This document shows positions 14,284-51,474 of a stretch of 64,000 nucleotides of DNA, in pieces. How positions within the stretch are numbered: position 1 is the stretch's first letter; the number at the start of each line of letters is the position of its first letter. Below the pieces are notes generated by a model, which did not search any database, was not told the origin of the DNA, and saw only the letters and a list, made by a program, of their open reading frames with translations. The translations under genes and the position numbers were made by a program. Origin of the DNA: Streptomyces sp. NBC_00289 (GTDB lineage Bacteria; Actinomycetota; Actinomycetes; Streptomycetales; Streptomycetaceae). The DNA lies in the NCBI RefSeq assembly GCF_041435115.1, contig NZ_CP108046.1:9424001-9488000 (forward strand). Direction: 5' to 3'.

Positions 14284-14287
14284 TCCG

Positions 14288-19565: not shown

Positions 19566-19795
19566 CGCGGCGCTCCCTTCCCGTCGGGGGCACGTGTCTC
19601 TTCCGGGCCACGGTCGGCCGTGGCCGTTCGCCTGTCTCCGCCGGTGACGAGGCGGGCGAGGCCGGCCCGCATCCGCCTGCCGAGGCCGGGGGAGAGGACC
19701 AGGTCCAGCTGGGTGTCGAGGAACAGGGCGTGCAGGTGCACACAGGCCTCGGGTTCGGCCGACGCGTGTGCCGGGTCGGTTCGGGGCGTGGTCAC
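19562..19795 (-). CDS. Unrecognised 77-residue protein in the biosynthetic operon
   Basis: Starts with GTG overlapping the ACP stop (GTGA) and ends overlapping the next small gene (ATGA). The middle segment EACVHLHALFLDTQLDLVLSP is amphipathic and followed by the basic GLGRRMRAGLARLV; the ends are hydrophilic and likely disordered. No domain is recognised. Its position directly after the glyceryl carrier protein suggests a role near that protein, but this is inference only. Confidence 0.55.
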   Translation of the reverse strand: MTTPRTDPAHASAEPEACVHLHALFLDTQLDLVLSPGLGRRMRAGLARLVTGGDRRTATADRGPEETRAPDGKGAPR

Positions 19796-20028
19796 CGGAC
19801 CACCACTTCGTACATCTGCCGGAACGTGCGCGTCTCCAGCAGGTCGACCACCGGGACGCGGCCTCCGAGGAGGGTCTCCACCACGGTCACGAGCCGCAGC
19901 AGCAGTACGGAGTCCCAGTCGGCGAAGTCGTCCAGGGGGCGGTCGAGGTCCTCCGCCTCGACGAGCAGGCCGAGTTCCTCCTGGAGAAGGGTGCGGAACG
20001 CTTCGATGTCGGCGAGGGCGGTGGTCAT
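19792..20028 (-). CDS. Discrete acyl carrier protein (predicted glyceryl-ACP)
   Basis: A 78-residue carrier protein. The phosphopantetheine-accepting Ser is in ADWDSVLLLRLV, preceded by an acidic helix (LLQEELGLLVEAEDLDRPLDD). It overlaps the FkbH-like gene by ATGA. In tetronate pathways the ACP directly after the FkbH-like gene carries the glyceryl unit, and the order KASIII-FkbH-ACP here is the same. It would be activated by the Sfp-type PPTase at 28542. Confidence 0.9.
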   Translation of the reverse strand: MTTALADIEAFRTLLQEELGLLVEAEDLDRPLDDFADWDSVLLLRLVTVVETLLGGRVPVVDLLETRTFRQMYEVVVR

Positions 20029-25900: not shown

Positions 25901-26031
25901 CAGCGCTCCCGGGGCACCCGCTGGGTGCCGTCACGCCCGTCCATGAGGAGCGACCAGTACTCCTGGGCGTCGCGGGCACCGGGGAAGCGGCAGTCCAGGC
26001 CGACGACCGCGATGGGTTCGCGTACGGTCAT
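22978..26031 (-). CDS. Type I polyketide synthase, single non-reducing module KS-AT-ACP
   Basis: A 1017-residue single module. The KS has DTACSSS (Cys184), EAHGTGT (His319) and KSNFGH (His357). The AT has GHSIGE (Ser622) and AFHS at 722-725, the signature for malonyl-CoA. The ACP has LGFDSIRVMEL (Ser958). There is no KR, DH, ER or TE domain, so one cycle would give a beta-ketoacyl-ACP. That is the substrate needed for a 3-acyl tetronate, fed by the FAAL-loaded ACP upstream. It starts by ATGA overlap with that ACP gene. Confidence 0.95.
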   Translation of the reverse strand: MTVREPIAVVGLDCRFPGARDAQEYWSLLMDGRDGTQRVPRERWDADRHHAAVPDAAHTAPEARPAGRSNTVRGGFITDPDAFDPGFFGIAPREAAAMDPQQRLLLQSSWRAIEDAALAPQDLAGTDTGVFVGVMANEWAFLQLADYDRITARHGSGNGYFMGANRVSYHLDLKGPSLAVDTACSSSLVAVHLAVNSLRAGECDHALAAGTNLIMTPVINIFYTQAGLSAPDGRCKPFSAAADGIGRAEGVAVLVLRRLSDALADRQPVYAVLKETGINQDGRSNGITAPNRFAQQQLIESVWRRAGVTADDIRFIEAHGTGTLLGDFIEAQALGELTSGRSGGSVALGSVKSNFGHAEGAAGIAGLIKVVLALHHRTVPPSRFADDENPKLDLPGRRLSLLKSPLRLPSGTVHAAVSSFGMGGSNAHAVLASAPRSVHHGRHPAPGVFTLSARTPERLRANLLAQADALARRPESQLAQLCWTSNRVKSRMPYRAAASAADLPALIAELRRAAERAEQTARADGGRRGPSVAFAFTGQGSQHPGMTASWYRSCPAYAHHLDEIDKLLAPHVHTSVRDAVLDGDADAARARLAQPALFAVGYALAATLTEAGIIPSAVIGHSIGEFAAACAAGALDPADAARLVARRGALMDDLPEDGGMLAVSLEAAEVELLLAGRERLSVAAVNGPRGTVVSGDLAELSSLEALLGERGVPVRRLAVSHAFHSPLMRPVVEEFRRECAEVSDRRPALPVFSTVHGRGLTGEETMDADYWARQITEPVRFAEAAGALLASGVTHVVEIGPRAVLTPLLSRLRADGGHAVSLHSAHPGEHAPGHRPQQLFGELWCAGLTPDWNLLYADTDRVPRRLPPYLFDESFRSWRSGAAPAGPESSAPAVPLDTDTTAVPSGADHGERRPPVPAGDVPDSLDALTRRLVCRIGGHDPRQVHDDDRLHEDLGFDSIRVMELKTRIEDALPQLGQLPIEDLLASLRTVADLVAYLRGQLADGGASAVPVTAEGTR

Positions 26032-26363
26032 GAGGGGTCCCGGCGGTGCTCGGCCCTGTCGGCCAGGAGTTCTGCGAGGTGGTCGGCGAGCGCGTGGACG
26101 GTCGGGAAGTCGTAGGCGACGGTGGGGGCGACGGCGAGCCGGTGGCGCTCCTCGATCTCTCCGCAGAGGCTGATCGCTGTGACCGAGTCGATGCCGTAGT
26201 CCGCGAGCGGGGTGTCGGGGTCGATCTCGTGGGGTGCCCGGTGCAGGTGGAAGGCCACCCGCTCGGTCAGCCACTCCTCGAGGTCGTGGTCGCCGTCCTG
26301 CGGCAGGAAGCCGTTCAGGGGGCGGGGGGACGGCGCGGTACGTGTTCCGGGGGCGAGGCTCAT
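26028..26363 (-). CDS. Stand-alone acyl carrier protein (FAAL partner)
   Basis: 111 residues with one PP-binding domain: LADYGIDSVTAISLCGEIEE carries the Ser. A 30-residue N-terminal extension precedes it. It lies between the FAAL and the PKS and overlaps the PKS start by ATGA. It most likely accepts the fatty acyl group from the FAAL and hands it to the KS. The sequence type (YGIDSV, PTVAYDFPTVHALA) is that of polyketide loading ACPs. Confidence 0.92.
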   Translation of the reverse strand: MSLAPGTRTAPSPRPLNGFLPQDGDHDLEEWLTERVAFHLHRAPHEIDPDTPLADYGIDSVTAISLCGEIEERHRLAVAPTVAYDFPTVHALADHLAELLADRAEHRRDPS

Positions 26364-26380
26364 GACGTGCTTCTCTCTTC

Positions 26381-26461
26381 GGGTCTCGAGGGCGGATCTC
26401 GAAGCGGATCTCGGTGGCGGGTCTCGGTGGTGGGTCTCGGTGACGGACGCCGGGGCGGATC
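26381..26461. repeat. 12-13-bp imperfect tandem repeats between FAAL and ACP genes
   Basis: Six to seven imperfect copies of a GGGTCTCGGTGG / GGATCTCGAAGC-like unit fill the 98-bp spacer, the only sizeable gap in the nine-gene operon. The function is unknown; it could be slippage-born spacer. Confidence 0.6.
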
Positions 26462-28297
26462 TCAGGGACGGGTCGACCCGGCGGCGGTGGGCTCGGCGGC
26501 GGTGGGCTCGGGCGCCGGGCCCGGTGCGGGCAGCAGGGCGGCGACCGCGGGTTGCAGGCGCTGGTGCAGCACGGGCAGGGCGCCGTCCAGGAACAGCCGC
26601 CGCATGAGCGTGCGCTGCGTCTTGCCGCTGGTGGTCTTACGGATCACTCCCTGCCGTACGAACACCACGTTCACGGCCGCCAGTTGGAACTGGCGGCTGA
26701 GCAACGCCTGTACCGAGGAGGCGAGTGCGGCCAGGGACTCCGCGTCACCGCCGGCCCGGGCCCTGATCTCCTGCACCACGACCACGTGGGCGCGGTCGGA
26801 GCTCTCGTCGGTGACACCGAACACCGCGCCGCCGCCACGCCGGAACGCCTCACCGGACTCCTGGACGGCCTGCTCGATGTCCTGCGGATAGAGGTTGCGG
26901 CCGTGCTGGATGAGCATCTCCTTGATGCGCCCGGTGACATACAGCTGTCCGTCGAGCAGCGCCCCGAGGTCGCCGGTGCGGAAGTGTCCGGCCCGGCCGT
27001 CCGCCGTCGCCGCCTGGAAGGTCTCGGCGGTGAGCGCGCTCCGGTTCCAGTAGCCGGCGGCCACCGACGGGCCACGCAGCCAGATCTCACCGACCTGCCC
27101 GCTGGGCAGTTCGCGCAGGGTCATCGGGTCCACGATCAGGATCTCGGTGTCCTTCGGGCGGCCGCAGCTGACCAGGGTGCGGCTGGGCCGGTCGGTGCGG
27201 GTGGGCCGCAGTTCGTCCTGCTCCAATGCCTGGGCGTCGACGGTGAGTTCCAGGTATGGCGCGTCGGGGTCGTCGCCGGACACCAGCAGCGTGTTCTCGG
27301 CCAGGCCGTAGCAGGGCAGTACGGCCTCGGGGCGCAGTCCGTTGCCCGCGAAGCGCCGGATGAAGGCGCGCAGGGTGTCGGCGCGCACCGGCTCGGCACC
27401 GTTGAGCGCCACCCGCAGGCTGGAAAGGTCCAGCCCCGCCGACTGCTCCTCGCTCACGCGCCGTACGCACAGTTCGTAGCCGAAGTTGGGGGAGGCGGTG
27501 CCCTCCACGCGGTAGTCGTGGATCATGCGCAGCCAACGGCTGGGCTGCTTGACGAACGAGATCGGCGACATCTGCACACTCGTCCCGCCCACCCACAGCG
27601 GCTGCAGTGTCATGCCGATGAGCCCCATGTCGTGGTAGAGCGGCAGCCAGCTGCCCGCCACGACGCCCTTCGGTGTCTTCATGGCCGAGCGGATGGCCTC
27701 CTGGTTGGCGGCGAGGTTGGCGTGGGTGACCATCACGCCCTTGGGCTCACTGGTGGAGCCCGAGCTGTACTGGAGGAAGGCCATGTCGCCGCCGCGCACC
27801 TTCGGCGGGGTCCACAGGTCGGGGTCGACGCCGTCGTCCTCGCCCGGGCCGGTCGCCAGGCACGCCACGTCCTGCTCCCCGGAGGCGACCAGCCAGGCAC
27901 CGATGGCCTGCCGGTACTGGGGCAGGGTCAGGACCGCGCCCACCTTGGCGTCCTGCAGGATGCCGCTGACCCGGGCCAGTCGTTCGCCGGGCTCGTCGGG
28001 CAGCGGGGCCGGGATGGCGGTGCGGCCGGCGTAGAAGCAGCCCAGGAAGGCCGTGACGAAGTCCAGGGTCGGCGGATAGAGCAGCAGGACCGGGCGTGAA
28101 GGGTCGCCCTTGGAGGCGTGGCGCAGCCGGGCGGCCACGACCCGGGCCCGCCGGTCCAGTTCCGCATAGCTGAGCTCCTCGGGTCGCATGCCCAGGCCGT
28201 CCTCGTGCAGGTACACGAAGGCGGCGCGGTCGGGATGGTGGTCGGCGCCGGTGCGTACGGCGTCCGTCAACGTTCGGGGATCAGGCTGGTGCGGCAC
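26462..28297 (-). CDS. Fatty acyl-AMP ligase (FAAL)
   Basis: A 611-residue ANL enzyme of the FadD32/FAAL group. It activates a fatty acid as acyl-AMP and transfers it to a carrier protein rather than to CoA. Visible motifs are FLQYSSGSTSEPKGVMVTH, SWLPLYHDMGLIG (typical of FAALs), PCYGLAENTLLV, HFRTGDLGALLDGQLYVTGR and the C-terminal Lys in KTTSGKTQR. Start is GTG with AAAGGA upstream. It is the first gene of the nine-gene operon and shares a promoter region with the divergent PPTase; a 15-bp palindromic site lies 50 bp upstream. Confidence 0.94.
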   Translation of the reverse strand: MPHQPDPRTLTDAVRTGADHHPDRAAFVYLHEDGLGMRPEELSYAELDRRARVVAARLRHASKGDPSRPVLLLYPPTLDFVTAFLGCFYAGRTAIPAPLPDEPGERLARVSGILQDAKVGAVLTLPQYRQAIGAWLVASGEQDVACLATGPGEDDGVDPDLWTPPKVRGGDMAFLQYSSGSTSEPKGVMVTHANLAANQEAIRSAMKTPKGVVAGSWLPLYHDMGLIGMTLQPLWVGGTSVQMSPISFVKQPSRWLRMIHDYRVEGTASPNFGYELCVRRVSEEQSAGLDLSSLRVALNGAEPVRADTLRAFIRRFAGNGLRPEAVLPCYGLAENTLLVSGDDPDAPYLELTVDAQALEQDELRPTRTDRPSRTLVSCGRPKDTEILIVDPMTLRELPSGQVGEIWLRGPSVAAGYWNRSALTAETFQAATADGRAGHFRTGDLGALLDGQLYVTGRIKEMLIQHGRNLYPQDIEQAVQESGEAFRRGGGAVFGVTDESSDRAHVVVVQEIRARAGGDAESLAALASSVQALLSRQFQLAAVNVVFVRQGVIRKTTSGKTQRTLMRRLFLDGALPVLHQRLQPAVAALLPAPGPAPEPTAAEPTAAGSTRP

Positions 28298-34585: not shown

Positions 34586-35548
34586 TCAGGTGCGGATCCA
34601 GCGGTGGTAGGCGCCCAGGTCGACGTTGCTGCCGCAGATGATGGTGGCCACATGGCGGCCGGCGAAGCGGTCACGGTCTTCCAGGACGGCCGCGATGCCG
34701 AGGGCCGCTGAGGGTTCGACGACCAGACCCGCGCGCTCCAGGAGCATGCGCATGCCCGCGACGATGGACGCCTCGTGGACCAGGACGGCGTCGTCGGCCA
34801 CCCTGAGAAGGTCGTCCAGGACCTCGGGGATGGGGTACCGGCCGGCGACGCCGTCGGCGATCGTGTCGGTCGAGTCGGTGGTGACGACCCGGCGCCGGTG
34901 CCAGGATCGGGTCATCGCGGGTGCGCCGAGGGGCTGCACGCAGATCACCTCGACATCCGGCGAAAGGGTCTTCAGGACGTAGCCCACGCCGGTGGCCAGC
35001 GCGCCGCCGCCCAGAGCGATCAGGACGGCGTCGAAGGAGGAGGCACCGCTCGCCAGTTCCAGGCCGATGGTCGCCGCGCCCTCGCAGGTCTCGATGTCGA
35101 GACTGTCCTCGACCAGCCGGACACCGCGCCGCTGCGCGATACTCACGGCCCGTTCGCGGGCCATCTCGAAGTCGCCGTCCACCAACTGCAACTCGGCGCC
35201 CAGCGCGCGGATCCGATCGAGCTTGACAGCGGGCGCCCTACGCGATGCCACCACCGTCACATCGAGGCCACGGCGACGACCGGACCAACCGAGTGCCTGG
35301 CCGAGGTTCCCGGCACTGGCGCACACCGCGGCCGTGCGGCCCTGCTGGGTCAGCAGGCCGGCGACACGTTCGGTGCCGCGGGCCTTGAAGCTGCGCACCG
35401 GGTTCGCCGTTTCCAGCTTGATACTCACCGTGCACCCGAGCTCGCGTCCCAACGCGTCGCACTGGTACAGCGGAGTGTCGAGAAAGACCGGGTCGATGTC
35501 CCGGCGTGCCGCGCGGATCCGGGCAAGATCGAGGCGCGTCGTGAGCAT
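34586..35548 (-). CDS. PLP-dependent threonine/serine dehydratase-like enzyme (fold II)
   Basis: A 320-residue tryptophan-synthase-beta-family enzyme. The PLP Lys is Lys55 in NPVRSFKARG, Asn is in CASAGNLGQALGW, and the phosphate loop is ALGGGALATGVG. These are typical of threonine/serine dehydratases and related diaminopropionate-type or hydroxyaspartate enzymes. It would deaminate a hydroxy-amino acid to a keto acid or carry out beta replacement. It lies 38 bp after the methyltransferase on the same strand and is probably co-transcribed. Whether it belongs to the neighbouring pathway is unclear. Confidence 0.82.
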   Translation of the reverse strand: MLTTRLDLARIRAARRDIDPVFLDTPLYQCDALGRELGCTVSIKLETANPVRSFKARGTERVAGLLTQQGRTAAVCASAGNLGQALGWSGRRRGLDVTVVASRRAPAVKLDRIRALGAELQLVDGDFEMARERAVSIAQRRGVRLVEDSLDIETCEGAATIGLELASGASSFDAVLIALGGGALATGVGYVLKTLSPDVEVICVQPLGAPAMTRSWHRRRVVTTDSTDTIADGVAGRYPIPEVLDDLLRVADDAVLVHEASIVAGMRMLLERAGLVVEPSAALGIAAVLEDRDRFAGRHVATIICGSNVDLGAYHRWIRT

Positions 35549-35586
35549 GACCGGCAACGTACCGCAGGGTGGGCAGCGCCTGAGGG

Positions 35587-36234
35587 TCAGCTCCCGGTCT
35601 CGTCGCGGCGGCAGTGCACGAAGAGGTGGGGTTCGGGTTCGGCGTCGGGGTGGTTCGGGGCGAAGGTGGAGCTGTGCCGGGACAGCACCACCAGTCCCGC
35701 CGTCTCCAGCATGCCGGTGATGTCCTCCTCGGCGAAGCTGGTCGCGCGGACCGGTTGGCCCATGAAGGCCACCTCGACGTCCTCCACGTCCGCGGGCACG
35801 GTGGCCAGCACCAGATGCCCGCCGGGCCGCAGGGCCAGGGTCAGTTGCCGCATCACTGCCGACTGCTCGGCGCGGGTCATCTGCAGGAGCGAGAAGAACA
35901 CGCACACGCCGTCGAACGAGTCCGCCTCGAGCGGGAGATCCCGGATGTCGGCGCAGCGGAACTCGGCCTCGGGTACCTGGCGGGCGGCGAGTTCGACCAT
36001 GACGGGGGAGATGTCGACGCCCAGTACCGAGTGCCCCGCGTCGTTGAGCGCGGCCGCGGTGGGCCGCCCGGTGCCGCTGCCCACGTCGAGCGTCCGCGCG
36101 GCGGGCGGCAGCCGCTCGATCAGCCACTCCAGCGCGGACAGGTGCGCGGGGGCATGAGCGAACGCCTTCTCGTAGTCGGGGCCCAGCGCGTCGAACAGCA
36201 CGGCGGCGGGCGGCCGTTGGTCCTCGTGACTCAC
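35587..36234 (-). CDS. SAM-dependent methyltransferase (class I)
   Basis: A 215-residue methyltransferase with the SAM motif LDVGSGTGRPT (about 49-59), the acidic residue in VLGVDISPVMV, and CADIRDLPLEADSFDGVCVFFSLLQM followed by LRPGGHLVLATVP. The start is GTG at 36234 with GAAGGGA upstream. The substrate is unknown. As a tailoring enzyme it could methylate the product of the adjacent aminotransferase/ThDP/KASIII operon. The shared upstream region holds a perfect palindrome. Confidence 0.85.
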   Translation of the reverse strand: MSHEDQRPPAAVLFDALGPDYEKAFAHAPAHLSALEWLIERLPPAARTLDVGSGTGRPTAAALNDAGHSVLGVDISPVMVELAARQVPEAEFRCADIRDLPLEADSFDGVCVFFSLLQMTRAEQSAVMRQLTLALRPGGHLVLATVPADVEDVEVAFMGQPVRATSFAEEDITGMLETAGLVVLSRHSSTFAPNHPDAEPEPHLFVHCRRDETGS

Positions 36235-36356
36235 GTCGGTGTCCCTTCGCTCGCAAGGCTGCATCGTCGCACCCGCCGGTCGGATTCCACAACGACCGCC
36301 CGGTGCGGCGGACGGCGGAGAACGCGGGCCGTACTCGACGAAGGTCACATTCCTGT

Positions 36357-36368
36357 TGTCGTACGACA
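36357..36368. promoter_or_regulatory. Perfect 12-bp palindrome
   Basis: TGTCGTACGACA lies in the 270-bp region between the methyltransferase (minus) and the small ORF at 36505 (plus). Possible operator. Confidence 0.4.
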
Positions 36369-36504
36369 GGGTGGTGGACCGCTGGAGTTCCGCGGCGGGT
36401 TCGCCGATCGGCCCGGGAGTGTGGCCGGTCGGCCGACGCGGTGTCGCGGCGGGCACGCCTAGCGTGGTTCCGGCCACGTCACCGCACCGCAAGGGGGATG
36501 TTCG

Positions 36505-36837
36505 ATGGATCAGCAAGGGACGACCGGAACACACGCCGACGCCACGGCCATGGGCGGACCGACCACGGAGTTCGAACCGGACGTCATGGACCTGCTGGTG
36601 GAGACACTGCGTCGCGCGGTGAGGCGTGAGTTGCCGTCCGTGGGCACGGACGCTGTGCTGGGCGAGCTCGTGATGGGGGACACGGGTGACGTGTGGCGCG
36701 TGCTCACTCCGCACGACGTGGTTCACTGCCGTAGAAGCCGAGACGGCTGGGTTCGCTGCCGAACGCCTCGCATGGCCGGCCGGCTCCCGCCAGTGCGGCG
36801 CGCACGGCGTCGTTGGCCTGTCGGCTGCCGACGGTGA
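36505..36837 (+). CDS. Doubtful small ORF, possibly a decayed ACP
   Basis: 110 codons with ATG after an AAGGGGGA-like site. The N-terminal half contains DVMDLLVETLRRAVRRELP and GTDAVLGELVMGDTGDVWRVL, whose spacing resembles an acyl carrier protein (helix 1, then LGEL-x-x-DS-x-DV). The modified Ser would be Thr here. The last 45 codons are read from the antisense of the aminotransferase 3' end and look like junk (Arg-rich). It may be the 5' remnant of an ACP gene cut by a deletion that also extended the aminotransferase tail. Low certainty. Confidence 0.35.
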   Translation: MDQQGTTGTHADATAMGGPTTEFEPDVMDLLVETLRRAVRRELPSVGTDAVLGELVMGDTGDVWRVLTPHDVVHCRRSRDGWVRCRTPRMAGRLPPVRRARRRWPVGCRR

Positions 36838-37771
36838 GCCGGAGGCCCTCGCCGGGGTAGTGGCGTGCCTGGACACCGGCGGCGGCGAGTGCGCCGGCCG
36901 CGTCATCGACGGGGTCGGGCGCGGCCAGCCAGAGCGAGTTGGTGTGGCTCTGGCCTATGTGCCAACCGAGGTCGACGAGTTGCCGCCGCAGCCGTGTCCG
37001 TTCGGCGACCACCGTCCGCACGCGCCGGCCCAGCTCGCTGCCGGCCCGCAGCGAGGCCTCCACGGCCGCACTCGCCACCGCGTTGATGCCGAACGGCAGT
37101 TGCTGCCGGCGGACGCGCGCCACCAGGTCGGGCGCACCGATTCCGTATCCGACCCGCAGGGCCGCGAGGCCGTAGGCCTTGGAGAAGGTGCGCAGGACCA
37201 GCAGGCGGGGATGGGCGTCCAGGAGCGTGAGCGTGTCCGGCAGGCCGGGGTCGCGGGCGAACTCCACGTACGCCTCGTCGAGGAGGACGGTGACCTGTGG
37301 GGGGACACGGCGCAGGAACGCGACCAGTTCGTCCGCGGTGATCAGGCTTCCGGTCGGGTTGTGCGGATTGCACAGGACCACGACGCGGGTGTGGTGGTCG
37401 AGTGCCGCGAGGATGGCGTCCAGGTCCTGTCGTCCGTCCGGGGACAGGGGCACGGGAACGGGTCGGGCGCCGACCATGCCCGCCAGCAGGGGATACGCGT
37501 CGAAGGTGCGCCAGGCGTGGACCATTTTGTCGCCGCGTTCGACCACCGCCTGCAGCAACTGCAGGGCCACGCCCACCGATCCGCTGCCGACCGCGACGCG
37601 CGCGGGAGGCACCCCGACCCAGGCCGCGATCCGCTCCGTGAGGTCGTCCGGGTGGAACTGCGGGTATCGGTGGGCCTGTTCGACGGCTCGTCGCATCGCC
37701 TCGCGCACCGAGGGCAGCGGAGGGTACGGGCTCTCGTTGAGGGCCAGGCGGTGCAGCACGGGGACGTCCAC
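36704..37771 (-). CDS. HisC/aromatic amino acid-type aminotransferase
   Basis: A 355-residue fold-I aminotransferase of the histidinol-phosphate/aromatic group. It has RLALNESPYPPLPSVREAM at the start, VVVLCNPHNPTGSLI, the PLP Lys198 in LRTFSKAYGLAALRVGYG and the substrate Arg near the C-terminus (GLRLTVGS). It would convert an aromatic amino acid such as tryptophan to its keto acid. The GTG start is 3 bp after the KASIII-like gene. The last 25 residues (after AALAGAGRPCEAF) look non-homologous, consistent with a 3' rearrangement. In the carbazole model it supplies indole-3-pyruvate. Confidence 0.87.
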   Translation of the reverse strand: MDVPVLHRLALNESPYPPLPSVREAMRRAVEQAHRYPQFHPDDLTERIAAWVGVPPARVAVGSGSVGVALQLLQAVVERGDKMVHAWRTFDAYPLLAGMVGARPVPVPLSPDGRQDLDAILAALDHHTRVVVLCNPHNPTGSLITADELVAFLRRVPPQVTVLLDEAYVEFARDPGLPDTLTLLDAHPRLLVLRTFSKAYGLAALRVGYGIGAPDLVARVRRQQLPFGINAVASAAVEASLRAGSELGRRVRTVVAERTRLRRQLVDLGWHIGQSHTNSLWLAAPDPVDDAAGALAAAGVQARHYPGEGLRLTVGSRQANDAVRAALAGAGRPCEAFGSEPSRLGFYGSEPRRAE

Positions 37772-37774
37772 CGG

Positions 37775-38794
37775 TCAGCCCCGCCCGCCGTGCCAGCGGA
37801 CGGCGAGGGCGCCGGCGAAATCGCCCGCGTGGGCGAAGCCCCCGAGTACTACCAGGTCACCGTCCTCGACCTGCCGTGTGCGGATCGCACGGTCCAAGGT
37901 GATCGGGATCGCCGCGCCGAACAGGTTCCCGTACTGGTCGAAGGTGTTGAGGTGCCGTTTCGCGGGCAGCTGCAGCGCCTCTCGCCAGTTCCGCAGGAAG
38001 GTTCGGTTGGGCTGGTTGGTGATGAGGGCGTCGATGTCGGCGGTCGCCACGCCCAGGCGCCGGCACAGCTCCGTGACCACCTCCGGTACCAGGCGGTTTC
38101 CGCGGGCCAGCACCTTGGCGACACTGGCGTCGGTGAAGCCGATCCGCAGTTGGGACTGCCCCGGCTCCCAGTACTTGCGGCCGTCGTCGAGCGCCACCGT
38201 CATGTCCCCGGCGTACGCGCCGATATGCCGCGTCTCCACGTCGAGGACCGGGGCCTCGGCCGACGTCGTCACATACCCCACGCCGCAACCGTCACCCGGG
38301 ATCGCGGCCTGCGCGAGCCCGCGCACCTCGGACTGGGTGAAGCACTGGCCCGCAGCGCTCTGCGCGTTGCAGATGAGCGCGGTCCTCGCGTCGGTGGTGG
38401 TGAGGATCTGGCGGGCCAGCTTCACCATGTACACGAAGGACGCGCAGCCGGCGTTGGCCACGTCGACGAGCCACTCCGGATTCAGTCCCAGCCGGCGTGC
38501 CACCTCGGTTCCGGCGCCCACGAACGGCAGGTCCGGCAGCTGGCTGTGCACCAACAGCACGTCGACACCGCGGATCGCGTTGCCGCCGTGCCGTTCGATC
38601 AGCGGCTGTACGGCACGCTCCACCATGTCCGCGTTGGTCTCGTCGGCGGCCACGTGGTGCCGTGACGGCGGCACCTTGAACATGGGGTGGTCACGGAGCT
38701 TGTCCTCGGCTCCGGGATAGTCGGTGTAGAACTCGGCGGGGATCGGCTCGCCGGGCAGATAGCTCGCGACGTCGGTGAGGCTGACCGTGGTCAC
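37775..38794 (-). CDS. KASIII-like enzyme (CqsB3-type candidate)
   Basis: A 339-residue thiolase-fold protein of the FabH-like group. Cys117 is in DVANAGCASFVYMV, and Asn290 is in FDQYGNLFGAAI. The place of the catalytic His is Asn (Asn260 in ALITNQPNRTFL). It is translationally coupled to the SRPBCC gene by GTGA. The set ThDP enzyme - ARO/CYC-like protein - KASIII is that of carbazole alkaloid assembly, where this protein joins the acyloin product to an acyl unit carried on an ACP. Other His-less KASIII-like proteins act as acyltransferases, so the exact reaction is open. Confidence 0.8.
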   Translation of the reverse strand: MTTVSLTDVASYLPGEPIPAEFYTDYPGAEDKLRDHPMFKVPPSRHHVAADETNADMVERAVQPLIERHGGNAIRGVDVLLVHSQLPDLPFVGAGTEVARRLGLNPEWLVDVANAGCASFVYMVKLARQILTTTDARTALICNAQSAAGQCFTQSEVRGLAQAAIPGDGCGVGYVTTSAEAPVLDVETRHIGAYAGDMTVALDDGRKYWEPGQSQLRIGFTDASVAKVLARGNRLVPEVVTELCRRLGVATADIDALITNQPNRTFLRNWREALQLPAKRHLNTFDQYGNLFGAAIPITLDRAIRTRQVEDGDLVVLGGFAHAGDFAGALAVRWHGGRG

Positions 38795-39444
38795 CGGCCC
38801 ACCGCCTTCGCCGGTGCCACGCTGACGGGCAGACCGTTGCGGTGGCGGTGTTCCAGGATCGCCTTGAGGTTGTTCATCTCCACGGTGTGTCCCGCGTAGA
38901 AGAGCTCCCAGAAGTCGCCCACCCAGGCCCGGTCCGGGCGCGGAGCCTTGTCGGGGTGGGGGTTGTCGTCGTAGTAGGGGTGGCGGCAGTTGGTCCAGGT
39001 GATCACCGACCCCGGCTTGTCGAGCACCAGGGCCGCCGGCACGACACGCATCAGGTAGATCATCCACAGGGTCTCGCCCTGGTCCCAGGAGCAGTGGTAG
39101 TCCACGGTCAGGGCCTCGGCGTTGGCGACGACCTTGCAGTAGATCGTCGTGTCGTCCTCGAGCCGGTCCTGGCCCACCCACAGGCCGGGTGTGCCGCTGG
39201 GCGCGAAGTCCCGCAGGCTGCAGGTCCATTCCTCCAGGTGGTGCCCCTGGCGCAGGTAGTCGAAGGCCTGCTCCGGAGGGCAGTCCACGTGGGCGTGGAT
39301 CGTGCAGTACTGCCCGTAGACCTGGTGGTGCGGATAGACGGCGTGGGTGAGCTCCATGCAGTGCGCGGTCAGCTCCTCCTTGCCGAAGTTCTCGATCCGC
39401 ATCAGACCGGGGATGTCAGCCAGTGTGGACGACGCCTCGCGCAT
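38791..39444 (-). CDS. SRPBCC (ARO/CYC-like) protein, CqsB2-type cyclase candidate
   Basis: A 217-residue START/Bet v1-type protein: after an N-terminal extension comes YCTIHAHVDCPPEQAFDYLRQGHHLEEWTCSLRDF, the usual opening of a polyketide cyclase/SRPBCC domain, and later GDFWELFYAGHTVEMNNLKAILE, the C-terminal helix. ATG at 39444 has AAGGAG upstream, although it overlaps the ThDP stop by 29 bp. Between a ThDP enzyme and a KASIII-like enzyme it matches the ring-closing CqsB2-type protein of carbazole pathways. A lipid-binding role cannot be excluded. Confidence 0.75.
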   Translation of the reverse strand: MREASSTLADIPGLMRIENFGKEELTAHCMELTHAVYPHHQVYGQYCTIHAHVDCPPEQAFDYLRQGHHLEEWTCSLRDFAPSGTPGLWVGQDRLEDDTTIYCKVVANAEALTVDYHCSWDQGETLWMIYLMRVVPAALVLDKPGSVITWTNCRHPYYDDNPHPDKAPRPDRAWVGDFWELFYAGHTVEMNNLKAILEHRHRNGLPVSVAPAKAVGR

Positions 39445-41287
39445 GGTGGCTCTCCTTGCTCTCGGGTGCTTCAGGGGTGGCGGTGGCTTCGATGGTTGCG
39501 GTGGCTTCGGTGCTGCGGGGTGTTGCGGCCGTTTCGGTCACTTCGATGGCCTCGGCGGCCTGGGCGGCCTCGGCGACCTCGGCGGTGAAGGACTGGAAGG
39601 GAAGGAACGGGGGGATCTCATGGGGGTCGCAGTCCAGCGCGACGAACGCCGGGCCCGGGCCCGTGTTGCCCCGCAGGAGTGCCTCGCGCAGCTGCGCGGC
39701 GTCGGCGGCACCGGAGACCATCAGGGACGGGAAGGCGGCCGCAACGGCGGCGGCGATGTCGGTCCGGGCGAACAGGTCGTCGCTGCGGACACCGCCCTGG
39801 AGGAACTCCTCCCGCACCGCGCACATGGCATGCGCGTTGTTGTTGAAGATCACGAAGGTGACGGGTGCGGCGTGCTCCACGGCGGTGTGCACCTCCATCC
39901 CGTGCATGAAGAAGGCTCCGTCGCCGGCGAGTACGTAGGTACGGCGGCCGGTGGCGAGCGCGGCGCCGATGCCGGCGCCGAAGGTGTAGCCCATGCCGCC
40001 CATGCCGAGCGCCACCACGAAGCGGCCGTCTCGCGGCGCGGGGAGGAGATGGATCGCGCTGGCGCCCGCGTTGCCGGCGTCGACGAAGACATGTGCGTCC
40101 TGGGGGAGTGCCGCCGCCACGGCGGCGACCGCCTGGGTGTAGGGGACGGTTCGCCCCGGGACGCGGGAGACCGGGCCGGGTGTGGGTGTGGGGAGGGGGC
40201 CGGCGTGCTGGGGGCAGGACCGGGCGAGCGGTGGGAGCCGGTCGGTGACCGCCCGCAGCGCCTCCCGCAGATCGCCGCCCAGCGCGGTGCAGTCCACGAA
40301 GGGCGGCTCGGGCCCCAGGCACACGACCTCGGTGTCCGCCAGGGACCGGTCGAGGCCGCCGCGCGCCAGCAGCGGCAGCCGGGTACCGGCCAGCACGCAC
40401 ACGTCGGCCCGCCGCAGACAGTCCTCGACGTTGGCATGGCCCATCACCCCCGCCACGCCCGCGAATCGCGGATCACGGTTGTCGAAGACGTCCTTCGCGT
40501 CGGGGGTGACCGCCACCCACGCCCCCAGGCGCCTGGCCAGTTCGGCCAGCTCCGCACGCGCGTCGGCGGAGGCGATGTCCTCACCGGCGATGACGAGCAC
40601 CCGGTCGGACCCGCGAAGGGTCTTCGACACGGAGGTGAGGGCCTCGGGGTCCGGCCGCGCCGCCGGTGCCGTAGGCGCCGGAGTCGGCGCCTGCCGTGTC
40701 GGTGCCGGGACGCGGCGGGGCAGGTGGAGCGGCGCCTGCTGCACGTCCTTGGGCAGCAGCAGCACCGCCGGCCCTCGCGGATCGGCCTGGGCCGCCGCCA
40801 GGGCCCGGGCCAGCAGCTCCGGCAGCGAGTCGGCGTCCTCCACCCGGGCGCAGAACTTCGAGAGCGGTGCGAAGACGTCTCGGGCGTCGAAGGACCCCGC
40901 CTTGCCGCTGGTGTCCTGGAACGCCCCGTGGCCCTCCTGACCGGTCGGCGGCTGCCCCACCAGGGCCAGCACGGGCACCCGGGAGGCGTACGCCTCGGCC
41001 AGGCCCGGAAGGAGGTTCATCGCGCCGCCACCCGACGTGGCGGCGACCACGCCCAGACGCCTGGTGGTGCGGGCGTATCCGTCGGCCATCGTGGCGGCGG
41101 CGAACTCGTGTTTGGCGACGACGCCGCGGACGACGCCGCCGCGGTGAACGGCGTCATACAGGTCCTCGATGTTCGCGCCGCCGACGCCGAACATGTGGGT
41201 GACGCCCGTCCTGGCGAGCTCTCCCGCCAGGTAGTCGACCAGGCGTATCGCTTCTGCCTCGGGTGTGTCCGAGGGCGTGTCGGTCAC
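39416..41287 (-). CDS. ThDP-dependent acyloin/acetolactate synthase-like enzyme (CqsB1-type candidate)
   Basis: A 623-residue ThDP enzyme with the three acetolactate-synthase domains. The activating Glu61 is in VVAKHEFAAATMADGYAR, and the ThDP/Mg motif is VLAGDGAFFMHGMEV with VIFNNNAHAMC 22 residues later. The expected reaction is decarboxylative coupling of two 2-keto acids, in the carbazole model indole-3-pyruvate with pyruvate. Start is GTG overlapping the regulator stop (GTGA). The last about 60 residues are a Thr/Ala/Glu-rich repeat tail absent from relatives. It overlaps the SRPBCC start by 29 bp. Confidence 0.85.
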   Translation of the reverse strand: MTDTPSDTPEAEAIRLVDYLAGELARTGVTHMFGVGGANIEDLYDAVHRGGVVRGVVAKHEFAAATMADGYARTTRRLGVVAATSGGGAMNLLPGLAEAYASRVPVLALVGQPPTGQEGHGAFQDTSGKAGSFDARDVFAPLSKFCARVEDADSLPELLARALAAAQADPRGPAVLLLPKDVQQAPLHLPRRVPAPTRQAPTPAPTAPAARPDPEALTSVSKTLRGSDRVLVIAGEDIASADARAELAELARRLGAWVAVTPDAKDVFDNRDPRFAGVAGVMGHANVEDCLRRADVCVLAGTRLPLLARGGLDRSLADTEVVCLGPEPPFVDCTALGGDLREALRAVTDRLPPLARSCPQHAGPLPTPTPGPVSRVPGRTVPYTQAVAAVAAALPQDAHVFVDAGNAGASAIHLLPAPRDGRFVVALGMGGMGYTFGAGIGAALATGRRTYVLAGDGAFFMHGMEVHTAVEHAAPVTFVIFNNNAHAMCAVREEFLQGGVRSDDLFARTDIAAAVAAAFPSLMVSGAADAAQLREALLRGNTGPGPAFVALDCDPHEIPPFLPFQSFTAEVAEAAQAAEAIEVTETAATPRSTEATATIEATATPEAPESKESHHARGVVHTG

Positions 41288-42363
41288 GCGGGGCTCCTGT
41301 CCGTCTCGTGGTGTCGGTCGGTGAGGCCGGACGGTGAGATGAGCTGAAAGCGGTGCCGGTACTGCTTCGGGGTGAGCCCCAGAGTTCGCCCGAAGGAGCG
41401 GAAGAACGTCTCGGGGGCCGCGAATCCGCAGCGTCGCGCTATCTGGGCGATCGTCAGGTCGGTGGTTTCCAGCAGTTCGCGGGCGCGGGCGATGCGCTTC
41501 CGCTCGACGTACTGCCCCGGGGTGGCGCCCACCTCGCGGCGGAAGACCCGGGCGAAGTTGCGCAGGCTCATGTTGGCGCGTCGGGCGATCTCGGCCACGG
41601 GCAGCGGATTGTGCAGGTTGTGCAGGATCCACTCCTGTGCGGCCCGGATCGGCGGATCGTCGGCCAACTGGGCGTCGAGGACCGCGCTGAACTGGGGTTG
41701 CCGTCCGTGCCGCTTGAGGGGCAGTACCAGAAAGCGTGCCGCCTCCAGTGCGAGCGGCGCTCCGTGGTCGGCCTCCACCAGGGCCAGCGCCATGTCGATC
41801 CCGGTCGACACGCCCGCGGAGGTCACATAGGGGCCGTCCCAGACGAAGATCGGCTCCGCGTCCACCCGCACGTCCGGATAGCGGCAGGCCATCGCCTCGG
41901 TGTAGGCCCAGTGGGTGGTGGCGTGTCTGCCGTCGAGGAGGCCGGCCTCGGCCAGCAGAAAGGATCCACCGCAGACGGAGGCGACTCGGCGGGAGCGGGC
42001 GGCCGCCCGGCGGATCCAGGAAACCAGCGCCCGATCCTGAAGGGCGCTGTTGAGACTCCATCCTCCCGGCACGAGGAGCGTGTCGATCGGTCCGTCGCCC
42101 GCTTCCAGGGGCGAGGCTTCCACGATCACCCCGGAACCCGTGCGCACCCGTGGTCCGTCGGCGGAGACGAGGTCGATCCGGTAAGGCCCGCCCGGCGGGG
42201 CGAGGAGTCGGTTGGCGGTATCGAACACTTCAATCGGTCCGGTGATGTCCAGGGCCAGTGCGCCCGTGTACATCACCACAACAACACGTCGCTCGAACAC
42301 GATCACACCCTGTATCGGGCGTGGCACTGGCTGCAATGCCGGATTATTGACGTATCCGGCCAA
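41284..42363 (-). CDS. GlxA-type regulator (DJ-1/PfpI domain + AraC HTH)
   Basis: A 359-residue activator-type protein. The N-terminal DJ-1/PfpI-like domain carries ALDITGPIEVFDTANRLL and a Cys in VASVCGGSFLLAEAGLL; the C-terminal AraC HTH pair is ARRANMSLRNFARVFRREVG and IARRCGFAAPETFFRSFGRTLGLTPKQYR. It is the first gene of the five-gene operon and is coupled to the ThDP gene by GTGA, so it is made together with the enzymes and probably autoregulates. A GTG start at 42303 is an alternative. Confidence 0.9.
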   Translation of the reverse strand: MAGYVNNPALQPVPRPIQGVIVFERRVVVVMYTGALALDITGPIEVFDTANRLLAPPGGPYRIDLVSADGPRVRTGSGVIVEASPLEAGDGPIDTLLVPGGWSLNSALQDRALVSWIRRAAARSRRVASVCGGSFLLAEAGLLDGRHATTHWAYTEAMACRYPDVRVDAEPIFVWDGPYVTSAGVSTGIDMALALVEADHGAPLALEAARFLVLPLKRHGRQPQFSAVLDAQLADDPPIRAAQEWILHNLHNPLPVAEIARRANMSLRNFARVFRREVGATPGQYVERKRIARARELLETTDLTIAQIARRCGFAAPETFFRSFGRTLGLTPKQYRHRFQLISPSGLTDRHHETDRSPA

Positions 42364-47712: not shown

Positions 47713-48882
47713 GTGAGTGGAGAAGGCACGGTGTACGACGCTGCCCGGATCGAGGTGCTGGAGGGGCGGGAAGCCGTTCGGAAGCGGCCGGGAATGTGGG
47801 TCGGCTCGACCGGCGAACGCGGTCTGCATCACATGGTGTTCGATGTCGTCGGCCGGGCGGTGAACCAGGTCCTGGCCGGCCGTGGCGGCTCGGTCGACGT
47901 CACGCTCACGCCAGATGGTGGCGTGCGGGTCGCCGACGACGGGTCGGGGGGTCCCTTCGAGGCCGCCGGAGACACCGGCGGCCCGGGCCTCGAAGCGCTG
48001 CTGACCAGCTTCCACGCCGGGTCCGGACCGGGCGACCGGACCATCGTCGCCGTGGGCCACTTCGGTGTGGGGCTCTTCATCGCCAACGCCCTGTCGAGCC
48101 GGCTGACGGCCGAGGTGCGGTGGGAGGGGGTCCGCCGCGTCCAGGAATACGCCCGCGGTGTCGCGGTCGCCCCGCCCGCCACCGTGGGGCCGGGGACCGG
48201 AAGCGGGACGACCATCACCTTCTGGCCCGACGCCGAGATCTTCGAGACGACGCGGTGCTCGTTCGCCGTGCTGGCGGAGCGATTCCGGCAGGTGGCCTTT
48301 CTCAACCGGGGCCTGAGGATCTCGCTGACCGACGAACGCCCTGCGGGCGCGGCCCGGGCGGTGCTGTTCCGGTTCCCCGAGGGGGTGCGGGACTTCGTGG
48401 CCGCCCTCGACGCGGAGGTCGGCGGGGCGGCCCTCCATCCGGACATCATCAGCTTCGAGCGGGAGGACCCGCGGATGGCGGGAACGATGGAGGTGGCCCT
48501 CCTGTGGAGCGGCCTTCGGGGGGAGAGGACACGCGGCTTCGCCAACAGCCAGGCCACTGTCGAGGGTGGCACGCACGTGGACGGCTTCCGCGACGGAGTG
48601 GCGGCCGCGGTCACGGCATACGCGCGGGAACGGGGGCTGCTGACCGGAGCGGACCCCGATCCCGAAGCTCACGGGATCGCTGGGGGCTGCACCGCAGTCG
48701 TGTCGGTGAAACTCGACCGCCCCGAATTCCTCGGGGCCACCTCTGAGCTGCTGGGCAACAAGGACGTGCGGGTCTGCGTCGCGGAGGCCGTCCAAGACCA
48801 CCTCAGCACCTGGTTCGAGACGCGGCCGGAGCGGGCCGCGGAGATCGTCGACCGAATCGTCCGCGGCACGCACCAGGACTGA
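47713..48882 (+). CDS. GyrB-like protein lacking TOPRIM and key ATPase residues
   Basis: 389 residues that cover only the ATPase and transducer parts of a type IIA topoisomerase B subunit. The opening matches GyrB well (IEVLEGREAVRKRPGMWVGSTGERGLHHMVFDVV). The N box, however, reads DVVGRAVNQ instead of EVVDNAIDE: the catalytic Glu is Asp44 and the Mg-binding Asn is Arg48. The QTK loop is also lost (GATSELLGN instead of GQTKTKLGN). The Asp of VADDGSGG remains. There is no TOPRIM or tail. ATP turnover is therefore doubtful; it may act as a regulator or binding partner of gyrase. Start GTG has GGGAGGGG upstream. Confidence 0.85.
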   Translation: MSGEGTVYDAARIEVLEGREAVRKRPGMWVGSTGERGLHHMVFDVVGRAVNQVLAGRGGSVDVTLTPDGGVRVADDGSGGPFEAAGDTGGPGLEALLTSFHAGSGPGDRTIVAVGHFGVGLFIANALSSRLTAEVRWEGVRRVQEYARGVAVAPPATVGPGTGSGTTITFWPDAEIFETTRCSFAVLAERFRQVAFLNRGLRISLTDERPAGAARAVLFRFPEGVRDFVAALDAEVGGAALHPDIISFEREDPRMAGTMEVALLWSGLRGERTRGFANSQATVEGGTHVDGFRDGVAAAVTAYARERGLLTGADPDPEAHGIAGGCTAVVSVKLDRPEFLGATSELLGNKDVRVCVAEAVQDHLSTWFETRPERAAEIVDRIVRGTHQD

Positions 48883-48927: not shown

Positions 48928-49338
48928 TCAGATGCCGAGCTCGGCGAGCAGGCCGCGTACGCGCTGTTCGATCGCGTCCCGGATCGGGCGGACGGCGTCG
49001 ACGCCTTGGCCGGCGGGGTCGTCGAGCTGCCAGTCGAGGTACCGCTTGCCGGAAAAGACCGGGCAGGTGTCCCCGCATCCCATGGTGATGACCACGTCGG
49101 ATGCCTGGACCGCTTCGGTGGTGAGGATCTTCGGGGTTTCGGCGGAGATGTCGATGCCCCTCTCCTTCAGGGCCTCCACGACAGCCGGGTTCACCGTGCC
49201 GGCGGGAGCGGATCCGGCGGAGCGGACCTGGACCCGGTCACCGGCGAGGTGGGTGAGGAAGGCGGCGGCCATCTGGGAGCGGCCGGCGTTGTGGACGCAG
49301 ACGAACAGCACGGAGGGAGGCTGGGCGGCGTTGCTCAT
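48928..49338 (-). CDS. arsC: Arsenate reductase (thioredoxin-linked ArsC)
   Basis: A 136-residue low-molecular-weight phosphatase-fold ArsC that reduces arsenate to arsenite. The P loop is VCVHNAGRSQM (Cys14 to Arg20), and the two relay cysteines are in MGCGDTCPVF (Cys88, Cys92). DWQLDDP has the catalytic Asp. It is the last gene of arsR-aquaporin-arsC, 34 bp after the channel gene. Confidence 0.94.
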   Translation of the reverse strand: MSNAAQPPSVLFVCVHNAGRSQMAAAFLTHLAGDRVQVRSAGSAPAGTVNPAVVEALKERGIDISAETPKILTTEAVQASDVVITMGCGDTCPVFSGKRYLDWQLDDPAGQGVDAVRPIRDAIEQRVRGLLAELGI

Positions 49339-49372
49339 GGCAGGTGTCTGTCCTTGCGGGCGGGTGGGGTGG

Positions 49373-50104
49373 TCAGGAGGAGGCGAGTTCGGGCTCGCCG
49401 TGCGGGACGACGACGTCCGCCGTGCGAGCTGGACGTTCGTACACCACCGCCACGGCGCCCAGCCCGAGTGCGGCGCCGAGCAGTTGGGCCGCGATGAAGG
49501 GGGCGACGGAGGCGGGGGCGATGCCCGCGAAGGTGTCGGTGAAGGCGCGGCCGACGGTCACGGCGGGGTTGGCGAAGGAGGTGGAGGAGGTGAACCAGTA
49601 GGCGGCCCCGATGTATGAGGCCACGGCGGCCGGGGCCAGAGCGGCACGGCCGATGCGCTCCAGGCCGAAGATCACCAGGATCAGCCCGGCAGTGGCGACG
49701 ACTTCACCCGTCCACAGGTGCCCGGCGAACCGGTCGTGGGTGGAGAACCGCACGAGTGGTCGGGCGAACATGCCGTCGGCCAGGACCGCGCCGCCGATCG
49801 CCCCGACGACCTGCGCGGGCACGTACGCGGCGACCTCGCGCAGGGTGGGGCCGGTGCCGTCGCGGCGGCCGGTCAACCACGCGGCGAGGGTGACGGCGGG
49901 GTTGAAGTGCGCGCCGGAGACCGGCCCGAGCAGTGTGATCAGCACCGCAAGGCCGAGCACGGTGGCGAGCGAGTTGGCGAGCAGCTGCACGCCGACGTCG
50001 TGCGACAGCTCGGTGGCCTGGATACCGGAGCCGACGACGACCGCCACCAGGAGGCCGGTGCCCACGGCCTCGGCGGCGACACGGCGGCCGAGGGTGGCCG
50101 TCAC
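49373..50104 (-). CDS. Aquaglyceroporin-type channel (AqpS-like)
   Basis: A 243-residue MIP-family channel with six membrane segments and both NPA boxes (AHFNPAVT and SFANPAVT). In an operon between arsR and arsC it most likely lets arsenite leave the cell, in place of an ArsB/Acr3 pump, as in the AqpS-ArsC arrangement. Its GTG start overlaps the arsR stop (GTGA). Confidence 0.9.
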   Translation of the reverse strand: MTATLGRRVAAEAVGTGLLVAVVVGSGIQATELSHDVGVQLLANSLATVLGLAVLITLLGPVSGAHFNPAVTLAAWLTGRRDGTGPTLREVAAYVPAQVVGAIGGAVLADGMFARPLVRFSTHDRFAGHLWTGEVVATAGLILVIFGLERIGRAALAPAAVASYIGAAYWFTSSTSFANPAVTVGRAFTDTFAGIAPASVAPFIAAQLLGAALGLGAVAVVYERPARTADVVVPHGEPELASS

Positions 50105-50475
50105 GCGGCGGCCGCAGCGGTCTGCGGCGAGGTCAGGAACGCGCCGAGCCGGTCCAGGGTGCCGGGCAGCACCCAGTAGTACACCCACGTCCCGCGGCGC
50201 TCGCAGTCGATGAGGCCTGCCTGACGCAGCAGCTTCAGGTGGTGGGAGATCGTCGGCTGGGACAGCTCGAAGGCCGGGGTCAGCTCGCAGACACATACTT
50301 CGCCGCCCTCCCCGCGTGAGGCGATCATCGACATCAGCCGCAGCCGTACCGGGTCGCCCAGCGCCTTGAACACCTTCGCCAGCTCCCCGGCGCGTTCCTC
50401 GTCCAGCGGCGCGGCAGTCAGCCCCTCGCAGCAGGCGGGGTCCCGGCCGGTCACCTCGAGCTCGTGTTGTGGCAT
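50101..50475 (-). CDS. arsR: ArsR-family arsenic-responsive repressor
   Basis: A 124-residue winged-helix repressor: FKALGDPVRLRLMSMIASRG, the recognition helix in FELSQPTISHHLKLLRQAGLID and the wing RRGTWVYYWV. Cysteines at 15, 16, 61 and 63 (ACC and CVCEL) are candidate As(III) ligands; the CVC pair near the HTH matches the classical ArsR site. It leads the ars operon and is divergent from arsM, so it probably controls both. Confidence 0.93.
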   Translation of the reverse strand: MPQHELEVTGRDPACCEGLTAAPLDEERAGELAKVFKALGDPVRLRLMSMIASRGEGGEVCVCELTPAFELSQPTISHHLKLLRQAGLIDCERRGTWVYYWVLPGTLDRLGAFLTSPQTAAAAA

Positions 50476-50515
50476 GCCTCTATGTTGACGTTTTTCGATC
50501 CAAGGCGCAAGGTTG

Positions 50516-50532
50516 CATCAATGAACATCAAT
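50516..50532. promoter_or_regulatory. Direct repeats between arsR and arsM
   Basis: Two CATCAAT copies are spaced by exactly 10 bp (one helical turn) in the arsR-arsM intergenic region, a plausible ArsR binding site. Confidence 0.45.
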
Positions 50533-50580
50533 ACAGGCCGTTCCGGGGCGCCGCCATACCCCGTCACTCAGGAGTGAGTC

Positions 50581-51474
50581 ATGAACGAACAGTCCACCGA
50601 ACTGCGCGAAACCGTCCGCCGGCGGTATGCCGAGGCGGCCAAGAAGGTCACCGGAGGAGGTACCGCCTGTTGCGGTCCGCAGCCGGTCGAGGTCGACGAG
50701 AACTTCGGTTCGACCCTCTACGCCGCCGCCGACCGCGACGCTCTGCCCGCCGAGGCGGTGGCCGCATCGCTCGGCTGCGGAAACCCCACCGCCGTCGCCG
50801 AACTGCGCGTCGGCGAGCGCGTGCTCGACCTCGGCTCGGGGGGCGGCATCGATGTGCTGCTCTCCGCCCGCAGGGTCGGCCCCACCGGCAAGGCCTACGG
50901 CTTGGACATGACCGAGGAGATGCTCCAACTCGCCCTGGCCAACGTCGAGAAGGCGGGCGCGACGAACGTCGAGTTCCTCAAGGGCAGCATCGAGACCATC
51001 CCACTGCCCGCGAACACCATCGACGTGGTCATCTCCAACTGCGTGATCAACCTGTCCGTCGACAAGGCCGCCGTGTTCGCCGAGACCTTCCGTGTGCTCA
51101 AGCCCGGTGGCCGGATCGGCGTCTCCGACGTCGTCGCCGACGACACCCTCACCCCGAACCAGCGGGCCGAGCGCGGTGACTACGTCGGCTGCATCGCGGG
51201 CGCACTCTCCTTCGCCGAATACCGTGCGGGTCTGAACGCCGCCGGATTTACCGACGTCGAGATCACGCCCACCCACTCCGTCGCCGACGGCATGCACTCG
51301 GCCATCGCCCGCGCCACCAAGCCGCGGCCCACCGGCGACTCCCCGAAGGAGGCGGAGTCGGCCGGCACCTGCTGTGGCGTCCACGCCTGCTGCACACCGA
51401 CCGAGACGTCCGTCGACTCCGCCCTGACCGTCACGGGGGCCAAGGCCGCGGCAGGCTGCGGCTGCCAGTACTGA
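50581..51474 (+). CDS. arsM: Arsenite S-adenosylmethionine methyltransferase
   Basis: A 297-residue ArsM that methylates arsenite to volatile or less toxic forms. The SAM motif is [12 protein letters not shown]. The three As-binding cysteines are Cys66 (SLGCGN), Cys154 (ISNCVINL) and Cys204 (YVGCIAGAL); the extra pair Cys30/Cys31 also matches the family. A Cys-rich tail ([10 protein letters not shown] and GCGCQY) extends the C-terminus and could bind metalloid or metal. It is divergent from arsR. Confidence 0.95.

Follow-up and report, generated by a model that had tools for sequence, protein, structure and literature searches.

A probable carbazole-type operon in Streptomyces sp. NBC_00289 with an asparagine-variant KASIII-like enzyme

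The window analyzed here, a 64,000 nt stretch (contig NZ_CP108046.1, positions 9424001-9488000) of the 11.0 Mb assembly of Streptomyces sp. NBC_00289, contains a compact minus-strand operon for a regulator, a thiamine diphosphate (ThDP)-dependent enzyme, a CqsB2-like cyclase, a KASIII-like condensing enzyme and an aminotransferase. In our analysis this operon probably directs, on its own, the synthesis of a simple carbazole from tryptophan. Carbazole biosynthesis has been elucidated in a small number of Streptomyces clusters, and homologues have been reported from S. cattleya, Sorangium and Scytonema (PMC7466098, Kobayashi and Kuzuyama review; all papers given here by PMC number are cited from part of their text). 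In that scheme CqsB1 is the KASIII-like enzyme, CqsB2 the carbazole synthase and CqsB3 the ThDP enzyme (PMC7466098). A first-pass annotation of the window had recognized the ThDP enzyme, an SRPBCC protein, the KASIII-like enzyme, an aminotransferase and a methyltransferase, and all of these were found on the minus strand by domain searches and the CqsB2 match, together with a regulator and a dehydratase-like gene that the annotation had not mentioned; its equation of the order ThDP-SRPBCC-KASIII with CqsB1-CqsB2-CqsB3, however, had the first and last names swapped.

Operon Structure and Conservation

The features of the operon, in order of transcription, are:

41284..42363, minus strand: GlxA-type regulator with DJ-1/PfpI and AraC helix-turn-helix domains (Pfam PF01965 and PF12833), heading the operon
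39416..41287, minus strand: ThDP-dependent enzyme, CqsB3/NzsH-like, proposed to form an acyloin (Pfam TPP_enzyme N, M and C above cut-off)
38791..39444, minus strand: CqsB2-like cyclase of the carbazole-synthase type, SRPBCC/ARO-CYC fold, without a Pfam or NCBIfam match and recognized through CqsB2
37775..38794, minus strand: KASIII-like condensing enzyme, CqsB1-like (ACP_syn_III and ACP_syn_III_C above cut-off)
38015..38017, minus strand: AAC codon of Asn260, at the KASIII catalytic-histidine position (sequence and alignment)
36704..37771, minus strand: HisC-type aminotransferase, CqsB7-like (NCBIfam PRK03321 above cut-off)

Each of the five frames is intact, and they lie close together, with overlaps of 4 bases (regulator/ThDP), 29 bases (ThDP/cyclase) and 4 bases (cyclase/KASIII), and a gap of 3 bases before the aminotransferase. 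The real unit is this coupled run, 36704-42363; a methyltransferase gene, followed by a dehydratase-like gene, starts about 440 bases beyond the aminotransferase. The regulator, which we take to be of the GlxA type, could start either at a TTG at 42363 or at an internal GTG. Nearest named relatives of the operon genes in the database match listing were from Streptomyces.

Two peptide patterns, applied to 84,980 species genomes, gave 528 confirmed places; conservation was assessed in the best 80 of these related loci, all from named genomes, by tblastn (E 1e-20) in flanks that reached up to 10 kb, or less where a contig ended. Matches to KASIII and the cyclase were obtained in all 80, to the ThDP enzyme in 79, to the regulator in 51 (every member of L001-L051, here referred to as clade A) and to the aminotransferase in 34. 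The cyclase, for which the first-pass annotation had suggested a comparison with CqsB2, matched that protein at E 2.2e-50, and the order regulator-ThDP-cyclase-KASIII recurs in L001-L051; the arrangement is therefore not due to chance. One locus, L067 (Mycobacterium shimoidei), has two cyclase copies (10001-10612 and about 20000), only one of which adjoins ThDP and KASIII genes.

Cyclase, ThDP Enzyme and Aminotransferase

Among named proteins of carbazole clusters, only CqsB2 (PDB) was compared directly. Comparison with the carquinostatin (Cqs) and neocarazostatin (Nzs) systems was otherwise made through five loci, L111-L115, from genomes of the window's genus (G219, G181, G102, G069 and G366), referred to here as Cqs-type because their cyclases are 70-98% identical to CqsB2.

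Cyclase residues D93, Y130, Y158, H186 and E189 of the window align with E105, Y144, Y172, H206 and E209 of CqsB2. Equivalents of the last four were kept in 115/115 clade rows, the window included, and in all 240 cyclase matches listed. In the ThDP tree, the 22 rows from trio loci (loci with ThDP, cyclase and KASIII genes), Cqs-type included, separated from eight ThDP paralogues of the window's genome with support of 100/100, and the window aminotransferase was placed as sister to the L111/L112 cluster aminotransferases (support 95/81). In seven loci (L052, L054-L057, L059 and L063) the order is instead cyclase-KASIII-ThDP, and the ThDP enzymes are of the Cqs-like lineage. This pairing suggests at least one exchange of the ThDP gene.

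An Asparagine-Type KASIII

The active site of the window KASIII consists of Cys117-Asn260-Asn290 in place of Cys-His-Asn, with the motif ITNQPN rather than ITHQPN. In an alignment retaining 119 of 120 rows (a cut copy from L067 was too short), Cys-Asn-Asn was found in 114/114 rows of the window's clade and Cys-His-Asn in 5/5 Cqs-type rows, a small sample in an alignment where several genomes stand under two labels (the window is also L081). His281 is likewise present in 114/114 clade rows, where 5/5 Cqs-type rows have Ala. Asn at the catalytic-His position extends to 120/120 database relatives (the closest 120 of 2,341 matches), the named ones all from actinobacteria. One of these, 94% identical to the window enzyme, carries the name Streptomyces avermitilis (P0244); a link to a product of that species was rejected when a literature search combining avermitilis and carbazole gave no such compound at title and abstract level. 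The NzsH product has been described as prone to facile decarboxylation (PMC9822442), and ready decarboxylation of the beta-keto acid may be what allows the histidine to be lost.

Proposed Pathway

Homology, operon structure, the conserved cyclase residues and clade membership are directly established; from these we infer the substrates, the reactions and the product. Given the kinship of the cyclase, the ThDP group and the aminotransferase, the best reading leads from tryptophan through indole-3-pyruvate and an acyloin to closure of ring A. The aminotransferase would convert tryptophan to indole-3-pyruvate, which the ThDP enzyme, by chemistry carried over from Cqs/Nzs, would join with pyruvate into an acyloin. 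Cys117 of the KASIII may be loaded with an acyl group from the cell's own acyl-ACP (acyl carrier protein) or acyl-CoA pool, followed by decarboxylative condensation of this group with the acyloin beta-keto acid. The CqsB2-like cyclase would then close and aromatize ring A before the unstable intermediate rearranges. The predicted product is a 1-alkyl-2-methylcarbazole-3,4-diol, oxidizing to the ortho-quinone, with a chain length that would be set by host fatty acids.

No dedicated ACP and KASIII pair (NzsE/NzsF, CqsB6/CqsB5) was found between 34586 and 42363. Domain searches of the genes in this interval also gave no P450, dioxygenase or prenyltransferase, as the first-pass annotation had stated. 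Since there is neither such a pair nor a conserved tailoring gene, the simplest product would be a carbazoquinocin-like 1-alkyl-2-methylcarbazole-3,4-quinone.

Neighboring Genes and Acyl Loading

Other genes that bear on the operon are:

about 35587-36264, minus strand: S-adenosylmethionine (SAM) methyltransferase, outside the conserved unit
34586-35548, minus strand: PALP threonine/serine-dehydratase-like gene, outside the conserved unit
26462-28297, minus strand (that of the trio operon): fatty acyl-AMP ligase (FAAL)
26028-26363, minus strand (that of the trio operon): ACP

The methyltransferase, which the first-pass annotation had counted as a pathway member, and the dehydratase were both rejected as pathway genes, with homologues in 0/80 loci at tblastn thresholds of E 1e-8 and E 1e-20. 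NzsH is reported to accept 2-oxobutyrate (PMC7466098); supply of this acid by the dehydratase has no support from conservation with the operon.

The FAAL and ACP genes lie in a complete-looking tetronate-type operon (18520-28297, minus strand) of FAAL, ACP, KS-AT-ACP, KASIII-like, FkbH (TIGR01686 above cut-off), ACP and thioesterase genes. Compared with the 80 loci, its polyketide synthase (PKS) had matches of 38-40% in four and its FAAL matches of 33-38% in six, five of them mycobacterial; the other proteins had none. Within 3 kb after the KASIII gene, no ACP-like frame was present in L001-L051 apart from one chance-like frame; the ACP matches of L008 and L037 lie next to PKS matches at another place in the locus, not on the 3' side of the KASIII gene.

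Of the 80 loci, 17 are mycobacterial; in five of them (L061, L065, L070, L074 and L080) genes for an ACP, a FAAL, an MmpL protein and an O-methyltransferase follow the KASIII gene. Domain searches of mycobacterial proteins were run on L061 or L058: the L061 carrier protein has 84 residues (PF00550, E 2e-9), and the best NCBIfam match of its FAAL, PRK09192, falls below its cut-off. A second methyltransferase is found in four of the five loci, and a P450 homologue, 38-39% identical to the L058 P450, in all five. The ACP and FAAL after the KASIII support an acyl-ACP donor in this mycobacterial branch, where the product is likely lipid-tailed. Of the remaining 12 mycobacterial loci, nine have nearby a zinc-finger (anti-sigma-like) gene, all of one family, and eight a MarR gene, likewise of a single family. 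In several of L062, L066-L068, L071, L072 and L075-L079 the trio stands near adk-/map-like genes, a sigma/anti-sigma-like pair and a MarR gene; with gene names assigned mostly by eye, many mycobacterial trios look like they share one chromosomal place.

Elsewhere in the window, 12805-17667 (plus strand) holds an MFS transporter, a thiolase and an AMP-binding enzyme with an ACAS_N domain in tandem, the last followed by an MBL-like gene (17703-18581). A short, lone GyrB-like frame of 383 residues (47731-48882, plus strand) and an arsenic-gene-like group (48928-51474; ArsC-like, MIP channel, ArsR-like and ArsM-like) were, like the MBL-like gene, recognized by eye.

Weighing the Carbazole Reading

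The first-pass annotation had matched these genes to Cqs logic, and this holds for the CqsB2-type cyclase, the ThDP group and the aminotransferase; support for it does not extend to the KASIII. Several observations weigh against a carbazole product. The KASIII, only 24-28% identical to the CqsB1-type enzymes of L111-L115, is without the catalytic His and may therefore catalyze a different reaction; its possible common descent with CqsB1 apart from FabH has support of only 93/96, in a tree with long branches and one outgroup row that is only 14% filled. The cyclase position equivalent to Glu105 is Asp in 115/115 clade rows and Glu in 6/6 Cqs-type rows, though still acidic, and six more cyclase positions distinguish the window's clade from the Cqs-type. 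The window ThDP enzyme belongs to a sub-lineage separate from the CqsB3/Cqs-type rows. Aminotransferases of L114 and L115 are only 39-40% identical to the window's and were placed apart from it, and in clade A the gene directly follows KASIII in 24/51 loci, some copies being fragments or cut by a contig end, with no aminotransferase adjoining in the other 27/51. In addition, no characterized member of the Asn clade was found in the literature searched, which was covered mostly at title and abstract level and included few subscription papers.

These differences could reflect the same logic applied to another aromatic, with phenylpyruvate, 4-hydroxyphenylpyruvate or another 2-oxo acid as ThDP donor and a non-carbazole product. 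The broad HisC type of the aminotransferase and its absence beside the trio in the 27 clade A loci would fit, as would the altered KASIII active site and the separation of the window branch from Cqs-type rows in all three trees. The sister relationship to the L111/L112 aminotransferases and the retained cyclase residues argue otherwise, and plain phenyl would be a poorer fit because the mechanism proposed for CqsB2 uses indole pi electrons (PMC7466098). We regard this alternative as unlikely. It is improbable that the Asn-KASIII no longer forms a C-C bond and instead acylates an oxygen, giving an indole acyloin ester, with another role for the cyclase homologue. Replacement of the catalytic His throughout the clade and the 120 closest relatives speaks for such a reaction, and the CqsB1 product reportedly converts spontaneously to indole-containing esters (PMC7466098); the cyclase and KASIII genes nevertheless stand together in 80/80 loci with the cyclase residues intact, which ester formation would not require, and Cys117 and Asn290 of the KASIII are retained.

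A hybrid locus, in which the carbazole side chain comes from the window's own FAAL and ACP and is joined with the tetronate genes, is the least probable of the readings considered. Its basis is the nearby same-strand FAAL and ACP, proposed as acyl source by the first-pass annotation, and the five mycobacterial loci with ACP and FAAL directly after the trio, where the idea does find support. In the window, however, the FAAL and ACP are part of the tetronate set, which looks complete, lies 8.4 kb away and is separated from the trio operon by genes on the other strand, and L038 is the only member of L001-L051 with a FAAL homologue (38%, opposite strand) in its flanks of up to 10 kb. Aminotransferase fragments in relatives such as L006 and L030 indicate that parts of the locus can decay; that it is silent or decayed in this strain is nonetheless very unlikely, given the five intact, tightly packed frames and trio proteins 67-92% identical to their counterparts in L001-L026. 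We therefore retain the tryptophan-derived carbazole as the probable product.

Distribution and Significance

A cyclase homologue was present in 37/392 sampled genomes of the window's genus, 22 at 70% identity or above, 11 at 51-60% (one of which, G366, holds a second, Cqs-type copy) and four with a best match of 41-45%. All 33 genomes of the first two groups have an Asn KASIII, which places the Asn clade in 33/392. In the genus of G428, identified as the Mycobacterium group from the complete identity (100%) of its locus L141 with L069 of Mycobacterium sp. URHD0025, a cyclase match was found in 99/148 sampled genomes. Five of these (G803, G842, G856, G858 and G882) have a cyclase with internal stops or in pieces; three of the five have genomes of only 3.2-3.3 Mb. 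Matches were found in 32/298 genomes of the order of G428 (one only 42 residues long) and in 15/396 of a phylum-wide sample (one marginal at 4.7e-4). Through named loci, many from metagenome bins, the clade extends to Planctomycetota, Myxococcota, Pseudomonadota and Bdellovibrionota and so spans five phyla. Cyclase homologues are also named in Tsukamurella, Gordonia, Williamsia, Nocardia and Rhodococcus, and Tsukamurella sp. 8F shares 79% cyclase identity with G1124 and G1078.

We tentatively propose, as a possibility short of probable, that the Asn-KASIII trio represents an old, widespread second carbazole lineage (five phyla, about two thirds of sampled Mycobacterium-group genomes) making lipid-tailed, redox-active carbazoles. 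Its KASIII would need no His since the beta-keto-acid nucleophile decarboxylates easily, and the tail may come from housekeeping fatty acid synthesis in Streptomyces and, in certain mycolicibacteria, from a dedicated FAAL-ACP pair coupled to export by MmpL. If true, bacterial carbazoles would be far commoner than known compounds imply, with relatives in streptomycetes, mycobacteria, planctomycetes, myxobacteria and others. A whole clade with Asn offers a natural test of the purpose of the KASIII catalytic histidine, and mass spectrometry could be used to look directly for the carbazole lipids that the FAAL-ACP-MmpL version suggests.

Comparison With Known Systems

In the literature searched, mostly at title and abstract level, we found no description of the operon, the Asn-KASIII or the mycobacterial version, and no gene cluster for the carbazoquinocins or lipocarbazoles. 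Carbazoquinocins A-F of Streptomyces violaceus 2448-SVT2 share the predicted product type, a 1-alkyl-2-methyl-3,4-carbazoquinone (PMC11350554, PMC7466098), a link of inferred chemistry only. Carbazoquinocin annotations from Micromonospora sp. SH-57 (PMC10817652) were considered as a tie to a producer and set aside, since their scores were low and no genes tied them to the operon. Tsukamurella pseudospumae Acta 1857 is a known source of lipocarbazoles (PMC7466098, text and reference 7), and Tsukamurella sp. 8F encodes a clade cyclase (P0127); this overlap in genus is suggestive and no proof of a link. The chlocarbazomycin chlCz cluster of S. tubbatahanensis and S. diacarni, compared by description only, likewise has a HisC-like aminotransferase, a ThDP enzyme, a KASIII and an SRPBCC protein, but unlike the window operon has its own ACP and oxidoreductases (PMC10100901).

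Closest for comparison are the Streptomyces clusters for carquinostatin (cqsB1-B2-B3-B7) and neocarazostatin (nzsJ-I-H), which have in common with the window a ThDP enzyme, a CqsB2-type cyclase, a KASIII-like enzyme and a related aminotransferase, with four of the five compared cyclase residues kept. Identity to L111-L115 falls from 39-43% for the cyclase and 35-38% for the ThDP enzyme to the low KASIII values given above, and the aminotransferase is 52-54% identical to those of L111-L113. The gene order ThDP-cyclase-KASIII contrasts with KASIII-cyclase-ThDP in Cqs/Nzs, and the window operon further differs in its KASIII (His to Asn), in having a regulator at its head, and in lacking an ACP, a second KASIII, a P450 and a prenyltransferase. 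Given the changed KASIII histidine, the absent ACP/KASIII pair and Asp at the Glu105 position, the operon is not a cluster of the Cqs/Nzs type, although it probably functions as the carbazole trio does.

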